NCBI RefSeq assembly: GCF_004354985.1
Contig: NZ_SMSK01000001.1
Span: forward strand, 62,001-126,000
Direction: 5' to 3'
DNA from: Segetibacter sp. 3557_3
GTDB taxonomy: Bacteria; Bacteroidota; Bacteroidia; Chitinophagales; Chitinophagaceae
Length of the DNA stretch: 64,000 nt
Below are positions 54,257 to 62,320 of the stretch, piece by piece (the stretch's first letter is position 1; each line of letters opens with the position of its first letter). The notes below the pieces were generated by a model. That model ran no database searches. It was not told where the DNA came from and was given only the letters and a program-made list of their open reading frames with translations. The translations under genes and the position numbers were made by a program.

Positions 54257-54877
54257 ATGATCGACCAGCCTGATACACTTTCCCTGCTCAAACGCATCGA
54301 AGATCTCGAAGCTGAAAACCAGGTTCTTCGTGGCAGGTTTCACGTAAAACCCGGTGATGTTTGTGTGGTGGTTCCAAAGGAACTAAGGCCTCATTTCGAT
54401 GCCGCAGAACAAACGGTAGGTGAATACTTCAAGCACTTGAAAATGGACCCCACGAAAGGTACCATAGAGATCAACGACCAACGTTATATTCTTGTTAGAG
54501 CATCGGCCTTATCAAAGGATTTTCTTGATACGGTTCAGAACCTTTATGCAGATCGCGGCGAACAGGCGGCACTTGCCATTGGCAAAAATTTTCTTTTTGA
54601 TATTGCCCACGTAATCGGGATGAACGATGCAAAAAACTTTCATTCAAAAATGAACCTCAGCGATCCGATTGCCCGGCTGTCGGCAGGACCTGTGTTGTTT
54701 GCGCATACCGGCTGGGCGTTTGTTGATATCTCTGGTGAAAGCAACCCTGAACCAAACGAAAACTTCGTTTTATTTTATACCCATCCTTACTCGTTTGAAG
54801 CTGACTCGTGGGTTCGGTCGGGAAAAAGGTCCGATACTCCTGTATGCATCATGAACGCCGGCTATTCGTCGGGCTAG
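54257..54877 (+). CDS. XylR_N/V4R sensor part of interrupted kinase
   Basis: 206 aa. Coiled start (LSLLKRIEDLEAENQVLRGR), then the XylR-N domain (DQRYILVRASALSKDFLDTV, RGEQAALAIGKNFLFDIAHV, ARLSAGPVLFAHTGWAFVDI) and the first half of the V4R domain, which binds small aromatic or heavy-metal-related ligands through its Cys/His. The frame ends at a UAG (54875-54877) after NAGYSSG, exactly inside V4R. The downstream kinase frame is in the same register and resumes with CEESFGLPLTAVEVSCIARG, so this is the sensor half of one gene. See the joining feature. Confidence 0.85.
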   Translation: MIDQPDTLSLLKRIEDLEAENQVLRGRFHVKPGDVCVVVPKELRPHFDAAEQTVGEYFKHLKMDPTKGTIEINDQRYILVRASALSKDFLDTVQNLYADRGEQAALAIGKNFLFDIAHVIGMNDAKNFHSKMNLSDPIARLSAGPVLFAHTGWAFVDISGESNPEPNENFVLFYTHPYSFEADSWVRSGKRSDTPVCIMNAGYSSG

Positions 54878-54958
54878 TGCGAAGAAAGCTTTGGGTTACC
54901 CCTGACCGCAGTAGAAGTAAGCTGCATTGCCAGGGGAGATAAACAGTGTAGGTTTATT
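54875..54958 (+). other. In-frame UAG joining the two kinase halves
   Basis: Codon 207 counted from 54257 is TAG in the context TAT TCG TCG GGC TAG TGC GAA. After it the frame stays open for 27 codons (CEESFGLPLTAVEVSCIARG, DKQCRFI) and enters the kinase ORF at ATG 54959. V4R domains carry an aromatic after the YxSG and before the SFG and CRF motifs, so one base (TGG or TAT/TAC to TAG) explains the split. Confidence 0.82.
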
Positions 54959-56611
54959 ATGTCGCCACCGGAGAAAATTCAGCTTCACCTCGAAAGGTAC
55001 CATCAGCGCTCAAATTACAAATACGGCCGGGCCGAACGGTATGAAGTGCCAACATTTTTCGATCGAAAGAGGGTAGAAGAGGAGATGCAGAAATCGCGGC
55101 TGTCGGCAGAGGAGTCAGCAAAACTAAAGTCGGATTTCGTTGCGAATATGAGTCATGAACTACGCACACCGCTGGGCACAATCCTCGGATTTAGCGATCT
55201 GCTGAAGAAAACTGCGCTTACTGCACAACAGCAAGAGTACCTGGAAGCAATCAATACCTCAGGTCGAAATTTGCTGTCTATCATCAACAACATTCTGGAC
55301 TTATCGAAACTTGATGCAGGAAAGTTTGTCGTAGACAATGTTTCATTTGATCTCGCCGAACTCCTGCACGGCATACGACTGATGTTTGGCAACGAGGCAA
55401 AGCAGAAGGGCCTGAGGTTTAATTTGCTCCTGGACTCAGCCATCAATTACCCGGTTCTCGGCGATCCTACCCGTATGACCCAGATCCTCTTAAACCTGAT
55501 CGGCAATGCCATCAAGTTTACCGAAACCGGCGGTGTTACCGTAAGCTGTATCGGGGCAGAAGAGGAGAATGATTCCGTTATATTGAATTTTTCGGTTGAG
55601 GACAGCGGTATCGGCATCGACGAACTTCAGCTGGAAACAATTTTTGAGCGGTTTACCCAGGCTGACTCAAATACCACCCGTAAGTATGGCGGCACAGGCC
55701 TTGGGCTCTCGATTACCCGGCAGCTGATCGGGTTAATGGGCGGAGCGATTTCGGTAAAAAGTTGTCGCGGCCAGGGAACAACTTTCGAGTTTACAATACC
55801 TGTTACCCGGGCAAATGCTGCGGTAACTGTCCAGGCGGATATGGAAGGTCAACAACTGCATTTCACGACACCCAAACGCATCCTGCTGGTGGAAGACACA
55901 CTGCTCAATCAAAAACTTACCTCTATCATTCTTCAGAATAATGGCTTTATAGTAGACGTTGCTGAAAACGGCAGGCAGGCTATTGATATCCTACGCGGGG
56001 AACAGTACGACCTCATCCTGATGGATATACAAATGCCTGAAATGGATGGATATGAGGCAACCTGTTATATCCGGGATACCATGAAGATAGCAATACCAAT
56101 CATTGCAATGACTGCGCACGCTCTGGCTGGCGAGCGGGAAAAGTGTTTTCAACAGGGAATAAACGACTACCTCGCTAAACCATTCTCCGAAAGCGACCTC
56201 CTTTTTAAACTTTCGCTTTGGCTGGTGGAAAAAAGATCTTCAGAAGCCGTTAACCCGGAGGACAGCCCGGTTGCTATTATCGATCTTGGCTTCTTGAAAA
56301 AACAAACCCGGAACAATGCGGCTGTCATGTCGGATCTGATCCGGATTTTTCGTGAAGAAAACCCTAAAGACATTTCAAAGTTGTCTGTCGCAATAGCCCG
56401 GTCGGATTACACAACCATTTATAAAACCGTGCATTCTTTGAAAAGTGAAACCAGCATGTTTGGATTACGCCCACTTGTTAGTCATGACCTCACCAGTATA
56501 GAGGAACTTGCACGGGCAGGAGGCGACATCGAAGAAGTCAAAAAGTGTTTTAGTCGTGTAGAACAGGTTTGTAAGCAGGCCGTGGAAGAACTGGCACTTC
56601 TACAACCCTGA
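54959..56611 (+). CDS. Hybrid histidine kinase half (HisKA-HATPase-REC-Hpt)
   Basis: 550 aa if translated from ATG 54959. A linker helix (FFDRKRVEEEMQKSRLSAEE) leads to HisKA with FVANMSHELRTPLGTILGFS (His300 in joint numbering), HATPase_c (DPTRMTQILLNLIGNAIKFT, EDSGIGI, GGTGLGLSITRQLIGLMGG), a receiver (RILLVEDTLLNQKL, phosphoacceptor Asp590 in LILMDIQMPEMDG, DYLAKPF) and an Hpt domain (TVHSLKSETSMFGLRP, His726). A complete phosphorelay, missing only its sensor, which is the preceding 206-aa frame. It is probably one gene with it. No output regulator gene adjoins. Confidence 0.9.
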   Translation: MSPPEKIQLHLERYHQRSNYKYGRAERYEVPTFFDRKRVEEEMQKSRLSAEESAKLKSDFVANMSHELRTPLGTILGFSDLLKKTALTAQQQEYLEAINTSGRNLLSIINNILDLSKLDAGKFVVDNVSFDLAELLHGIRLMFGNEAKQKGLRFNLLLDSAINYPVLGDPTRMTQILLNLIGNAIKFTETGGVTVSCIGAEEENDSVILNFSVEDSGIGIDELQLETIFERFTQADSNTTRKYGGTGLGLSITRQLIGLMGGAISVKSCRGQGTTFEFTIPVTRANAAVTVQADMEGQQLHFTTPKRILLVEDTLLNQKLTSIILQNNGFIVDVAENGRQAIDILRGEQYDLILMDIQMPEMDGYEATCYIRDTMKIAIPIIAMTAHALAGEREKCFQQGINDYLAKPFSESDLLFKLSLWLVEKRSSEAVNPEDSPVAIIDLGFLKKQTRNNAAVMSDLIRIFREENPKDISKLSVAIARSDYTTIYKTVHSLKSETSMFGLRPLVSHDLTSIEELARAGGDIEEVKKCFSRVEQVCKQAVEELALLQP

Positions 56612-56748
56612 CAATTCCTGTTTGGTATCCCGGAGTTTCATCTATTTATAACCCGTCCACATCAGATTGGTAATACGCACAAAACTGGCCAGACTTACAG
56701 GTGGGCTTACAATTTGTCGGTAGCGCCTGGTGTTTAGTCGGCTGGCAG

Positions 56749-57507
56749 TTACAACAACCTTTGCCCGATTTGTGTCATAAACTCGTCCCGCTTTTTTGGT
56801 GAAATTGCAATTGTTGATTCGTCATTCATCACGGCATACCCGCCATCAGTCTTAATCATCCTTTTCACTTCTTTTAGGTTTATGATGTGTGAATTATGTA
56901 CCCGGAAAAAATTGTGATCGCCCAACATGGTTTCATACTCTTTAAGGTTTTTGCTTACCATTATTTTTCTGCCTTCTTTTAAAAAGAAATGGGTATATGG
57001 TCCTGAAGCCTCCAGCCGGATTATATTTTGTATTGGTACAAATTCAAGTCCTTCAGATGTTGCCAGTGTTATTGAAAAGTCGCTGTTTGCAGGTTTGCGA
57101 ATGTTTTGCAATAACCTATCGATCGTTTGTTTGCTGGAGTTGTTTTCCACCCGCGACTTTGCTTTTTCTATGGCTAATTGCAACTCTTCAATATCTATTG
57201 GTTTTAGCAGGTAATCGATCGCGCTAAACTTAATCGCTCTTATGGCATAGTGGTCGTAAGCCGTGGTAAAGATTACCTGGAATTGTGGATCAATGAAATG
57301 CTGCAATACATCGAAACCCGTTCCGGTTTGAAGCTCGATGTCGAGGAAAACCACGTCCGGCTTATGCGTGTTGATCAACGCCACAGCTTCAGGTACGTTG
57401 GCCGCCAACCCGGCAACTTTCACGTCGGTACAAAATTCCTCCACAAGAGTTCTCAGAAATTCACGACTCCTGGTTTCATCATCAACAATGACTGCTTTCA
57501 GAACCAT
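56749..57507 (-). CDS. LytTR-type response regulator
   Basis: 252 aa. Receiver ~1-120: KAVIVDDETRSREFLRTLVE (acidic pair), PDVVFLDIELQTGTGFDVLQ (phosphoacceptor Asp), VIFTTAYDHYAIRAIKFSAI and DYLLKPID (Lys). LytTR DNA-binding domain ~150-250: GLEFVPIQNIIRLEASGPYT, KNLKEYETMLGDHNFFRVHN, SHIINLKEVKRMI, GGYAVMNDESTIAISPKKRD. Partner of the sensor kinase gene 19 bases upstream on the same strand. Binds direct-repeat sites in target promoters; targets unknown. Confidence 0.95.
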   Translation of the reverse strand: MVLKAVIVDDETRSREFLRTLVEEFCTDVKVAGLAANVPEAVALINTHKPDVVFLDIELQTGTGFDVLQHFIDPQFQVIFTTAYDHYAIRAIKFSAIDYLLKPIDIEELQLAIEKAKSRVENNSSKQTIDRLLQNIRKPANSDFSITLATSEGLEFVPIQNIIRLEASGPYTHFFLKEGRKIMVSKNLKEYETMLGDHNFFRVHNSHIINLKEVKRMIKTDGGYAVMNDESTIAISPKKRDEFMTQIGQRLL

Positions 57508-57526
57508 ATATAAATTGGTTGACTAT

Positions 57527-59314
57527 TTATAAATTACCGCCGTCCCGTGGTTGGGGAACCAGCAACCTCACCTCGTTAACAAATGTTGTTTCAGCAGGCA
57601 ATTCTTCCTGATGCACCACTTCTATTTTGCGCTCCGTATTATTGTTGTACAATGTGAGCCTTTTGTGCAGGATAGCTGAAGCGTTCATTTCATTATCCAG
57701 CCCTTTGGATTGTTGTCTTGCAATGGCTGTGGTTCGGTTAAGACCATTGTCGCTAACAGTTACCTGCAACTGACTTCCAGCCATCTCAAATAATATACAC
57801 AGTCTGCCGGTCTCGCCACTATCCAAATTCAAAATTCCCAGGTACAACGCATCTTCAACCAGGCTGTGGACCATCATTGGTGGCAATAACGCAGAACGGG
57901 TAACACCATTGCCACTGAAATGTACACTATATTCAAAGCGGTCGGGGAAACGACATTGCTCCAGCCATAAGTATTGTTCAAGCAGCACGGCTTCTTGTGC
58001 TGCCGTTATCAAAAGGTCGTCGCCATAGTTAAGCACATTTCTCAAGAAGGAGGCAAAACGGGTGAGGTAAAGTAATGCACTCTTGCGGTCGTTTAGCCCA
58101 ATAAAGTACTGTAGTGAATTAAGTGAATTAAAAATGAAGTGTGGATTTAGCTTCGCTTGAAGAATCTTCATTTTTAGATGTTCATTGATCCCCTCAATCG
58201 TTTGCTTTTGTTCCGCTATCAGCTTGTTCCGTTCTTTCAGTTCGTCGTGGAGTCTCTTTTTTTCGCGAAACCTTAGGTACAGACCACCTGCAAACAAGAT
58301 TACCATCGCCCCTATGGCAAGTGCAATATTGCGATATGTTTTTTCCCGCTGAACTTCCAGGGCGGTGTCGATCAATCGTTGGGTAACAATCTCGCGTTCT
58401 TTTGTAAGTAACTCGATATCGCCCGGCTTGCCCCTTGAGCTATCTGCGTTGGACACGTTTAATACGATATTTGCCACCTCTTCACCAAGGTATTTTTTAA
58501 TGAGCCGGTTAACCAATAGTTTGCATTCAACACTATTAAAATAACTATTTACCGGTTCACTCCAGTCGCTTTCCTTTGAATATATGGCGGCAAAACCTTC
58601 CCGGCGCGTAGCAAGTACCTGTTGTCGCTTGACTTTAATCCCCCGTTGCAAGGCTATTACATATATGCTTACCGGAACATAGCCAAACGCATTTTGTACC
58701 GTAGCAATTTGTTTCAGCACTTCGTAATCATCTACCTGGTTGTAGACCGGTAGTTCTGGATAGTAATCTTGTTTAAGTCTGAGAAGGTCTTTTTCCATGG
58801 TGGTATGTTCCATAGTATAACCTTTCATTCGTTTAAGGTCGCCGACGAAGTCATGCTCGCTTTTGTAAACAGGTAAACTGTTGTTAGACACCACAATGTT
58901 TAGATCGGGCATATAGGGCGGAGAAAATTTCACTTCGCGCTTACGTTCGTCCGTGATAGAATAAAATGAAAGTCCAAACAGGCCCTTGTAATGCGACCTA
59001 CTAATAAACGGGTATATATTTTTGAACGATTTTGCATCAACCCAATTAACTTCTAAGTCAACGCCATAATGTTTTTTCAGAAAAGGCTTAAATCCTTCCA
59101 TTAGCTCATATTCTACCCCGATGATTTCACCACTGCGTGTACGGTAGATAAATGGCTCAATGTCGTACCACAATACACTGATTACCCCCCTTTTTTTCGC
59201 CTTTGTTTCTTTCCATGAATCTTCCTTTATACGGTATTGTGCAGTTAGCAACGCTGGAAACAGCATCCAGCACAATACAAGAGCGACTGAGCGGTATTGG
59301 CAATTAAACTTCAA
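57527..59314 (-). CDS. LytS-type kinase with solute-binding sensor
   Basis: 595 aa. Signal peptide (SVALVLCWMLFPALLTAQ), then a periplasmic bacterial extracellular solute-binding-3 domain (~40-280; VISVLWYDIEPFIYRTRSGE, FSPPYMPDLNIVVS, AFGYVPVSIYVIAL, FAAIYSKESDW), one membrane helix (~325-345, NIALAIGAMVILFAGGLYLR), a coiled linker and a His_kinase domain (QAKLNPHFIFNSLNSLQYFI). ATP-binding boxes are altered: the usual ENAxxHG reads EDALYLG, and DNGxG reads DNGLN. It may have weak or no kinase activity, or sense a periplasmic amino acid or similar ligand and control its LytTR partner by contact. Confidence 0.88.
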   Translation of the reverse strand: MKFNCQYRSVALVLCWMLFPALLTAQYRIKEDSWKETKAKKRGVISVLWYDIEPFIYRTRSGEIIGVEYELMEGFKPFLKKHYGVDLEVNWVDAKSFKNIYPFISRSHYKGLFGLSFYSITDERKREVKFSPPYMPDLNIVVSNNSLPVYKSEHDFVGDLKRMKGYTMEHTTMEKDLLRLKQDYYPELPVYNQVDDYEVLKQIATVQNAFGYVPVSIYVIALQRGIKVKRQQVLATRREGFAAIYSKESDWSEPVNSYFNSVECKLLVNRLIKKYLGEEVANIVLNVSNADSSRGKPGDIELLTKEREIVTQRLIDTALEVQREKTYRNIALAIGAMVILFAGGLYLRFREKKRLHDELKERNKLIAEQKQTIEGINEHLKMKILQAKLNPHFIFNSLNSLQYFIGLNDRKSALLYLTRFASFLRNVLNYGDDLLITAAQEAVLLEQYLWLEQCRFPDRFEYSVHFSGNGVTRSALLPPMMVHSLVEDALYLGILNLDSGETGRLCILFEMAGSQLQVTVSDNGLNRTTAIARQQSKGLDNEMNASAILHKRLTLYNNNTERKIEVVHQEELPAETTFVNEVRLLVPQPRDGGNL

Positions 59315-59485
59315 TAAGCTTTTATTAATAACTAAAGATGATAAATTCCCGGCACTCTTTGCTATGTAGGACCAAAGGGTAGGTGCTGATCGTAGACTGC
59401 AAACTGTACTTCAGCTTAGTTTCGAGCACCACCTGTTCTATAATGTCGAAACATTGCTGATTAGTACGCAAGCTTCGCAATTCAA

Positions 59486-60391
59486 TTAAACTTGTACGTG
59501 TAAAAATAGATTTACGCCCTCCAGTTCCTGACCAACATGGATCTGTTCTTTATTTGCGCCTGCCTTTATAGCCAGTTCAACCAATTGTTCTTTTGACCGG
59601 TGTTGCAAATACCAATCGCCAACCAATTCCATATAGTTCCTGCTCGGATTTTCATTGCTGAAGTTTCCAATTATTACCTCTCCACCCTGTTTTGTCCAGC
59701 TCATGAATTTAGTCAGCAGCCGGATAAAAACCTTTTCGTCGAAGTAGTCAAACAGTCCGGCACTCCAAACCACATCAAACTTGTCCTCGGGGGTAAAACG
59801 AAAAACGTTTTTGTGTATAAAGGATACCATTGAGGCATTGGATGCATTGAGTTCTTTGGCGTAGTTGATTGCAGTTGCATCCGCTTCTACGCATACCGTA
59901 TGGAGTTTTGCACTATCGATGGTGCCATAAAGTTCAGCAATATCCCGGGCTGGTCCGCTCGCAACGTTTAACAGGTGCAGGGAAGGGTTGGTGACCAGCT
60001 TGTGGGTCATCATACTTATAAAATAGTCCTTCCTATTGCGCACTGCCCTTGCTGCAGCGTGATTATTCCAGAATATGTCCCACTTTTCGAAACGCTGATC
60101 TGTAGTTACCTGCTCGCGATAGATCTTATCGATGATCAGGAAATCCCCGGCATAACCAAACGGTTTCAGTTTAACGTGTCCATGGAGGGTATTTTCCATG
60201 CATTCATCACCAAAACCCTCCTGTAATAGCTGTACTTCCTGTTCGCTCATTTTACCGGATTTGTAATCAGCGGAAATGTCGTCGAAGATTGTATTCAACA
60301 CGGCGTACTCGCCTGTTTCCGGGCCTCCTTTTTTTATGATGTTTTGCAAAAAGGAAAGCGCATTTGTACGTGTATTAACTGCTGTGTTCAT
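59486..60391 (-). CDS. SAM-dependent methyltransferase, PhcB-like
   Basis: 301 aa. The N-terminal ~100 residues (LHGHVKLKPFGYAGDFLIID, KIYREQVTTDQRFEKWDIFW) hold a GYAGD motif seen in enzymes near 3-hydroxypalmitate methyl ester synthase (PhcB). The C-terminal Rossmann fold has LHLLNVASGPARDIAELYG (SAM site), HTVCVEADATAINYAKEL, VSFIHKNVFRFTPEDKFDVV, WSAGLFDYFDEKVFIRLL. A fatty-acid-ester quorum signal is a possible product; the alternative is another small-molecule methylation. No PhcS/PhcR sensor genes adjoin, so this is a family hint only. Confidence 0.72.
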   Translation of the reverse strand: MNTAVNTRTNALSFLQNIIKKGGPETGEYAVLNTIFDDISADYKSGKMSEQEVQLLQEGFGDECMENTLHGHVKLKPFGYAGDFLIIDKIYREQVTTDQRFEKWDIFWNNHAAARAVRNRKDYFISMMTHKLVTNPSLHLLNVASGPARDIAELYGTIDSAKLHTVCVEADATAINYAKELNASNASMVSFIHKNVFRFTPEDKFDVVWSAGLFDYFDEKVFIRLLTKFMSWTKQGGEVIIGNFSNENPSRNYMELVGDWYLQHRSKEQLVELAIKAGANKEQIHVGQELEGVNLFLHVQV

Positions 60392-60817
60392 GTTTTAATT
60401 TTTCTTGGTTATTGATGAGACAAAGCTCGTGAGGAAACCGCCTGGTTAAAATACCCGCTTAACGGATGGGCAGTTTCACTTAACGGATATGCCGCATATG
60501 CCAGGCCTTTGTGCCAGGCGCATGTTAACACAGGCACCAGGGTCGTATTCGAGAGCGCTAACAAAAACCGCTGATTGTGCAAATGAAAGCACCAGACAAT
60601 GTTGTCACGCATAACGACCAATTTTTAAGGCCGTCTTTTGAAGAAATGATATATCGGGTAAAGCTGTCACGAAACCGCGAAGGTCTATTCCGAGCGCTGC
60701 TAAACCTGGGTTGATGGGTTGTAATTGCCGTTTTGTTAACCCAATTGCCGGATTCGTTAACCACCGCAATAGCGCTACATAAGCGGGTTTACTTTAGCGG
60801 AAATAATTCTTAGCAAT
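60392..60817. other. Intergenic between divergent genes
   Basis: About 426 bases with promoters for the methyltransferase and monooxygenase genes. No coding frame or consensus pair recognised. Confidence 0.45.
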
Positions 60818-62320
60818 ATGAAAAAGGTTGGAATCATCGGGGCTGGAATAAGCGGCCTCACCACTGCAAAAGCTTTTTTAAACAAGGGCTATGCTGTTAC
60901 AATTATCGAGAAAGCGGCATCTATTGGTGGCGTTTGGGAGAAAAGCCGGTCATACCTTGGGGTTACTACCCAAACAACCCGCGATGAATATGCCTACTCC
61001 GACTTCCCCATGCCAGCCCATTATCCTTTGTGGCCGTCGGGTGCCCAGGTGCAGGCATATCTCGAAAGTTATGCAGCAGCATTCGACATCAGCAGGCACA
61101 TTCGTTTTAATACCCAGGTAACCGATCTGCGCTATGAGCATGGCCGTTGGTTGATGCGTATCAATAATGTTGACAATACCAATGCAGGTACGTTGACATT
61201 TGACTTTGTTGCAATTTGCACCGGGACCTTTCACAAACCCTATGTTCCAGAGTACCCGGGAGCACAGCAGTTTGTTGAAGCTGGCGGAAGTATCCTGCAT
61301 TCTAGCCAGGTGAAAAACGAGTCTTTGCTAAAAAATAAGGCTGTTGCTGTCGTGGGCTTTGCCAAGTCTGCAACAGATATTGCCACCCTCGCTGCAGACC
61401 TGGGCACAAGTTGTACCCTGTTATACCGGAAGGCCCAGTGGAAAGTTCCGCGCTTCTTTGGTAACAAGGTCAATCTGAAGTACCTGTTGTTCTCGCGCTT
61501 TTCTGAAGCGTTTTTCAACGGGCCTGAAAAACCATTATTCGAGAAAATCTTGCATTCTATTGGTAAGCCATTGGTTTGGGGACAGTGGCGAGCCCTTGAG
61601 GCGCTGCTTAAAATGCAGTTCAAACTAAAAGCCTGTAATATGATCCCCGATCATAAGATTGAGGACCAGATTAGTTGCGCACTGGGCATTGCACCCGAAG
61701 GTTTTTACGAGAAGGTGCGCACTGGTAAAATAGCTGCGAAATGTACTGTTATCGACCACTTCGATGGAAAGAAGGTGGTCTTAAAGAATGGCGAAACGCT
61801 TACACCGGATCTCATTATCTATGGTACGGGCTTTAGCCAGTCGCTACCTTTCCTGGAAGAACGATATAGGAACCTCGTGGTCGATGAGAGCGGACGCTAC
61901 CAACTATACCGGAATATCGTTAACCCCGACATACCGCAACTGGGATTTGTGGGTTTCAACTCCAGCCTTTTCAGTACACTTACTTCAGAAGTTGCGGCTC
62001 ACTGGCTTGTGGCGTATGCATCAGGTACGATCAAACTTCCAACCAGTGAACGTATCCGGCAGGATATTACATTTATGGATAACTGGCGTAGAAGCCGTGT
62101 ATCGGCCTCAGTATTCAGTGGTACATGTGTTGCGCCGTTCAACTTTAAGCACATTGATCAATTAATGAACGACATGGGGCTTCCTACACGCATTAGCCGG
62201 TCGCCGCTCCAGTTTTTCAAACCCATAAACCCGGGCGACTACCGGAGGTTGTTGCAAATCAAAACTACACCTCCGAGGGTAAAGTCAGCCGTGCACGAAA
62301 TGGAAGCGGAAGCATTTTGA
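60818..62320 (+). CDS. Flavin-containing monooxygenase
   Basis: 500 aa. Two Rossmann motifs: FAD-binding KVGIIGAGISGLTTAKAF (~3-20) and NADPH-binding AVAVVGFAKSATDIATLAAD (~175-194; the Gly-x-Gly is GFAKSA). TQTTRDEYAYSDFPMP and FVAICTGTFHKPYVPE match the FMO / Baeyer-Villiger-related branch, and IYGTGFSQSLPFLEERYR the C-terminal ATG motif. Oxygenates a soft nucleophile (N or S) or a ketone using NADPH and O2. Substrate unknown; it lies divergently from the methyltransferase gene, which may hint at a shared small-molecule pathway. Confidence 0.9.
   Translation: MKKVGIIGAGISGLTTAKAFLNKGYAVTIIEKAASIGGVWEKSRSYLGVTTQTTRDEYAYSDFPMPAHYPLWPSGAQVQAYLESYAAAFDISRHIRFNTQVTDLRYEHGRWLMRINNVDNTNAGTLTFDFVAICTGTFHKPYVPEYPGAQQFVEAGGSILHSSQVKNESLLKNKAVAVVGFAKSATDIATLAADLGTSCTLLYRKAQWKVPRFFGNKVNLKYLLFSRFSEAFFNGPEKPLFEKILHSIGKPLVWGQWRALEALLKMQFKLKACNMIPDHKIEDQISCALGIAPEGFYEKVRTGKIAAKCTVIDHFDGKKVVLKNGETLTPDLIIYGTGFSQSLPFLEERYRNLVVDESGRYQLYRNIVNPDIPQLGFVGFNSSLFSTLTSEVAAHWLVAYASGTIKLPTSERIRQDITFMDNWRRSRVSASVFSGTCVAPFNFKHIDQLMNDMGLPTRISRSPLQFFKPINPGDYRRLLQIKTTPPRVKSAVHEMEAEAF

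Follow-up and report, generated by a model that had tools for sequence, protein, structure and literature searches.

The single in-frame TAG at positions 54875-54877 of the window (the whole stretch of 64,000 nucleotides of Segetibacter sp. 3557_3 that was analysed) interrupts a gene which, judging from its domains, is a hybrid histidine kinase gene with HisKA, HATPase_c, REC and Hpt domains and their phospho-acceptor residues. The most likely reading is that a recent nonsense mutation has hit a V4R hybrid histidine kinase which is ordinary in all other respects, and the comparison with homologous sequences makes us regard this as probable. The gene is laid out in one frame of the forward strand: an ATG at 54257, the TAG at codon 207, a second ATG at 54959 and a TGA whose last base is 56611. 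A sequence-only reading of the window had described two frames in one register separated by one TAG only, and the coordinates agree with it: the two starts are 702 bases apart, the TAG is the sole stop between them, and 27 codons lie between the TAG and the second ATG. The upstream frame (54257-54877, 206 aa, terminated by the TAG) contains XylR_N (residues 59-157) followed by the beginning of V4R (residues 183-206). The downstream frame (54959-56611, 550 aa, its ATG being M235) contains HisKA, HATPase_c, REC and Hpt in this order.

When the TAG was read as X, the V4R domain (Pfam PF02830) scored 37.4 bits (cut-off 31) at residues 183-236 (54803-54964), thus across the stop, and XylR_N matched with 26.8 bits against a cut-off of 23. 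This means that the 27 intervening codons do encode the rest of V4R, as had been proposed from the sequence alone, and that the continuity of the two frames is beyond chance. The description of the upstream frame as an XylR_N/V4R frame stands for XylR_N alone: taken on its own, this fragment matched XylR_N with 30.2 bits (cut-off 23) and no other Pfam family, since V4R is cut in two by the TAG and is recovered only when the TAG is bridged. A family search of the 6.75-Mb genome itself found V4R here, with one TAG inside, as its sole V4R match at E <= 0.001. The downstream fragment matched HisKA, HATPase_c, REC and Hpt, and the phospho-acceptors H300, D590 and H726, which were picked by eye, are kept in all 20 rows of the alignment.

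Out of 394 genomes of the family that were searched with a profile of the sensor half, 20 gave a match, the genome of the window included. The 19 other loci have open frames of 773-808 codons with zero stops, from which ORFs of 768-806 aa were taken; these proteins are 47-60% identical to the window protein, bear the sensor and the kinase halves in a single frame and have similar neighbours. The column of the TAG is Trp in all 19, preceded by Gly and followed by Cys every time. The alignment to relatives which the sequence-only reading had proposed thus gives a sense codon at this column in 19 of 19 cases, and two separate genes, which that reading had considered for the relatives, were seen at none of these loci, all of them being uninterrupted single genes. 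The window copy differs from all the others by its stop, and also by Leu147, where all 19 have His. Chitinophaga barathri has a further orthologue, open over 782 codons and with Trp at the TAG column, which is not one of the 19, its identity to each of them being 69% or less. One of the orthologues (genome G011) passes the Pfam cut-off for V4R at 35.5 bits, has XylR_N slightly under the cut-off at 22.2 bits and Hpt below it (19.8 against 24.6).

The gene was found in none of the nine other genomes of the genus of the window, and when 395 genomes of the phylum were searched, three weak matches only turned up besides the genome of the window, in frames of 211-242 aa. With the nearest orthologue 60% identical and no congener among these nine carrying the gene, the stop cannot be dated. 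A scan of contigs of named genomes had also left 80 loci, which were not used as orthologues because kinase patterns prevailed among them: 77 of the 80 matches start at or after residue 230 of the query, and the three others at residues 176, 180 and 202. Ten of these loci served solely to reach genomes, one of which has an orthologue.

Decay elsewhere in the gene was measured by leaving out one row at a time and counting the columns, invariant in the remaining rows, which are broken in that row. The window gene breaks 5 of 159 such columns, the changes being V78I, H147L, T450S, N548T and M635I. In the seven rows of comparable isolation, with a closest relative at 51-59% identity, the counts are 3/157 for L171, 4/158 for both L159 and L168, 5/159 for L170, 8/162 for L172, 15/169 for L173 and 16/170 for L174; the other 12 rows have their closest relative at 77-97% identity and break 0 or 1 column, as is expected with close kin. 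Just past the TAG, at residues 208-268, none of the 19 invariant columns is broken. The earlier remark that nothing else in the gene looks decayed is therefore borne out, the count for the window gene being no higher than in some intact orthologues that are about as divergent. In the tree, the end branch of the window gene (0.92) is comparable to those of L168 (0.90) and L170 (1.02), with which it forms one poorly resolved group, and those of L171, L172 and L173 are longer (1.87-2.05). As there is no excess of broken columns and the end branch is not unusually long, the lesion looks recent, unless it is a base error. The neighbouring genes in the window are open.

Among the changes listed above, the one at residue 147 (54695-54697) adjoins the column of the His which contacts phenol in MopR, close to the pocket of the ligand, and is a point against the reading as a recent nonsense mutation. 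The Leu found here could reflect a changed choice of ligand, or a retuning, or else an early relaxation of constraint.

The profile of the sensor was compared with the solved structures of MopR (PDB 5kbe and 7vqf), PoxR (5fru) and DmpR (6iy8), and matched MopR with E-values of 4.3e-11 and 5.1e-11, PoxR with 1e-5 and CapR/DmpR with 0.0056. The match runs over XylR_N and V4R, and the residues C197, E220, C223 and C231 align to the Cys, Glu, Cys and Cys which are the zinc ligands of MopR, PoxR and DmpR; all four are invariant in the 19 orthologues. According to PMC7264223, the zinc of DmpR is held by Cys151, a Glu printed as Glu172, Cys177 and Cys185; the aligned Glu would count as residue 174 of DmpR instead of the printed 172. 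The N-terminal module resembles, in this respect, the zinc-containing sensors of small molecules such as MopR, PoxR and DmpR. Two differences must be noted. The output of the window gene is that of a hybrid histidine kinase, whereas DmpR is an AAA+ bacterial enhancer-binding protein (PMC7264223), and the chains of MopR, PoxR and DmpR have Tyr at the column of the stop instead of the Trp of the 19 orthologues. As to the ligand, the phenol hydroxyl is held by a His and a Trp, which PMC7264223 numbers His100 and Trp128. This His and this Trp are absent from the aligned positions of the window protein, which are F148 and H176 when counted along the MopR alignment, and the 19 orthologues have the same two residues. 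The label of phenol sensor is therefore not transferable, and the protein probably does not bind phenol as its ligand in the manner of these sensors.

The TAG falls among the zinc ligands. C197 (54845-54847), the counterpart of the first zinc cysteine, is the only one of the four kept in the upstream product. The three others, E220, C223 and C231 (54914-54949), are encoded within the 27 codons that belong to neither ORF, which means that neither product has a complete sensor by itself. If a nonsense mutation is indeed at the origin of the TAG, it would have changed residue 207, a Trp codon in the compared relatives, and would halt translation within V4R. The 206-aa product, deprived of three zinc ligands, would presumably be non-functional, and the ligand-responsive kinase would not be made, or would be made in traces only, by natural misreading of UAG. 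A kinase without sensor, uncoupled from the ligand, may arise by restart at the ATG 54959 or at a second internal in-frame ATG, M277 (55085-55087), a putative start preceded by a purine-rich stretch; such a restart is possible as an accident. The nonsense mutation is what the open Trp orthologues (19/19) and the lack of other excess decay argue for. Of the four meanings which the sequence-only reading had listed for the TAG, the recent nonsense mutation is thus the one that we retain, or else the base error.

The latter would mean that a base call or the assembly is wrong and that the true gene of the strain is open and ordinary. The remainder of the gene looks functional and the relatives found are open, as one would expect of such an error; we nevertheless consider it unlikely. 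The arguments for this are weak ones: the assembly has good figures (6.75 Mb in 35 contigs, completeness 100, contamination 0.25), and other long genes of the same genome are nearly always open. Thus 55 of the 56 SusC/RagA matches are free of internal stops (56 of 135 candidates were scored), and so are all nine ACR_tran matches, three of which are partial.

The one SusC/RagA match that does contain an internal TAG is the second TAG-broken gene of this genome (L181:1470-4574; contig G000:C1, 72969-76073), a TonB receptor gene with its TAG at L181:1878-1880, which separates frames of 136 aa and 881 aa; it is followed by a 467-aa ORF which is SusD-like by eye. The 16 foreign matches to its downstream frame lie in stop-free frames of 976-1121 codons, and the TAG column is Tyr, Tyr and Phe in the three relatives that are readable at this column. 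One TAG among the 56 matches scored fits ordinary pseudogenes. The fact that both interruptions found in the genome are TAG counts against the nonsense-mutation reading. On the other side, the relatives of the one amber-broken gene do not have the same residue at the site as those of the other, which speaks for ordinary mutation rather than for a code in which UAG stands for one amino acid, two cases being few. Codon-based scans for further interrupted genes in 444 kb of the contig of the window gave 2 candidates with one model and 8 with the second, to which no weight is given: the second model missed the kinase gene itself, which it scored -0.9 and 1.8 on either side of the stop, under its own threshold of 4.

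One may also suppose that the split was accidental and has since been retained, the downstream frame being kept by selection as a sensorless kinase, either constitutive or differently controlled. In-frame ATGs do exist at 54959 and 55085, and the phospho-acceptor residues of the kinase, REC and Hpt parts are intact. Several observations make this very unlikely. The kinase is in the frame of the sensor at all 19 loci, as found by a search which is based on the sensor and is blind to kinases without one; when the kinase half was compared with 59 genomes, its two best foreign matches were the same fused genes. M235 never varies among the orthologues, where it belongs to the C-terminal end of V4R; its presence calls for no function in restart, and its origin is not that of a start codon. 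E220, C223 and C231 are unspoiled, despite the fact that neither frame would need them. Between 53900 and 56800 we counted 5 promoter-like sites where 3.5 +/- 2.2 are expected by chance, with a consensus which is a poor guide in Bacteroidota. The idea of a meaningful arrangement with two products, which the sequence-only reading had also entertained, finds no support, as a split is seen at none of the 19 loci with the sensor and both products lose three of the four zinc ligands.

Programmed readthrough of the UAG, by which a tuned fraction of the ribosomes would make the full kinase and the stop would set its dose or make it conditional, appears to us still more improbable. The columns past the stop are fully conserved, and the absence of decay would be equally expected of a gene that is still translated by readthrough. 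The stop is, however, private to the genome of the window (0 of the 19 orthologues), and the machinery points the other way. Among the 43 matches to tRNA models in the genome, 39 of them above the cut-off (150 of 356 candidates were scored), none was read by ARAGORN as having a CTA anticodon; three of the four matches below the cut-off yielded no ARAGORN gene. No Ala(TGC) tRNA is among those found, from which it follows that the assembly may miss tRNAs of rRNA operons. Release factor RF1 is present, as an uninterrupted match of 494 bits. The suppression of UAG that had been proposed from the sequence alone thus finds neither a suppressor among the tRNA genes found nor a missing release factor. 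The RNA downstream of the stop is unremarkable, the fold of 54866-54985 being no better than that of shuffled sequences (z = -0.13), and the TAG is followed by a U, UAG-U being a context of efficient termination.

Three side observations were made on the tRNA genes. A 96-nt tRNA-Ile(GAT) candidate (L051, G000:C23:8480-8574) scores 27.3 bits, under the cut-off, and is possibly inserted or degenerate. Two more tRNA-Cys(GCA) genes lie at G000:C6:57903-57973 (L040) and G000:C33:224240-224310 (L047), and a third adjoins tRNA-Phe on contig C26.

The literature can be read on both sides of the readthrough question. The survey PMC7918605 argues that many prokaryotes have in-frame stops in genes which are still under constraint, which is in favour of readthrough; it also holds that such stops tend to persist only briefly, and its authors assume that the vast majority of them are without functional recoding, which is against it and agrees with the case of the window. 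The genes of that survey resemble ours by their single in-frame stop, their constraint and their open relatives; the survey was centred on stops found in at least 2 species, whereas the stop of the window is found in one genome only. It is just as improbable that the amber acts as a live switch of dose or condition, giving a trace of full-length kinase by misreading of UAG together with a restarted sensorless kinase, in which case the efficiency of termination would determine the balance between the kinase that senses and the kinase that does not. Neither programmed readthrough nor a two-product design is supported, and both are left with a small probability.

Downstream of the kinase gene lie a convergent LytTR response regulator gene (56749-57507, reverse strand), an SBP_bac_3/His_kinase sensor kinase gene (57527-59314, reverse strand) and a gene for an FMO-like flavin monooxygenase (60818-62320, forward strand), homologues of which are close to the kinase in 18, 16 and 11 of the 19 orthologue loci respectively. 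The LytTR homologues are 52-66% identical, while the best paralogue in the genome of the window reaches 43%; L162 has no such homologue. The sensor kinase homologue at L168 has just 31% identity and is encoded on the opposite strand, and none was seen at L161 and L171, which are short contigs. A methyltransferase homologue is close to the kinase in 3 of the 19 loci, and the order and orientation of the neighbours vary among loci. The recurrence of this set in genomes of the family (in the window at 54257-62320, the V4R hybrid kinase with the LytTR regulator, the SBP-type histidine kinase and the FMO-like enzyme) suggests a module of response to small molecules. In the open-licence literature that was searched, V4R-histidine kinases of Bacteroidota are undescribed in titles and openings of abstracts; PMC5847659 mentions V4R and MopR in its account of an archaeal domain.

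The window gene as found is thus, on the reading as a recent nonsense mutation, an ordinary lesion by a single nonsense codon. For annotation, this means that both ORFs should be taken as one broken V4R hybrid kinase, and not as a free V4R protein beside an orphan kinase. The intact family is of modest interest in itself, with a MopR-like sensor set on a hybrid histidine kinase in a recurrent neighbourhood.
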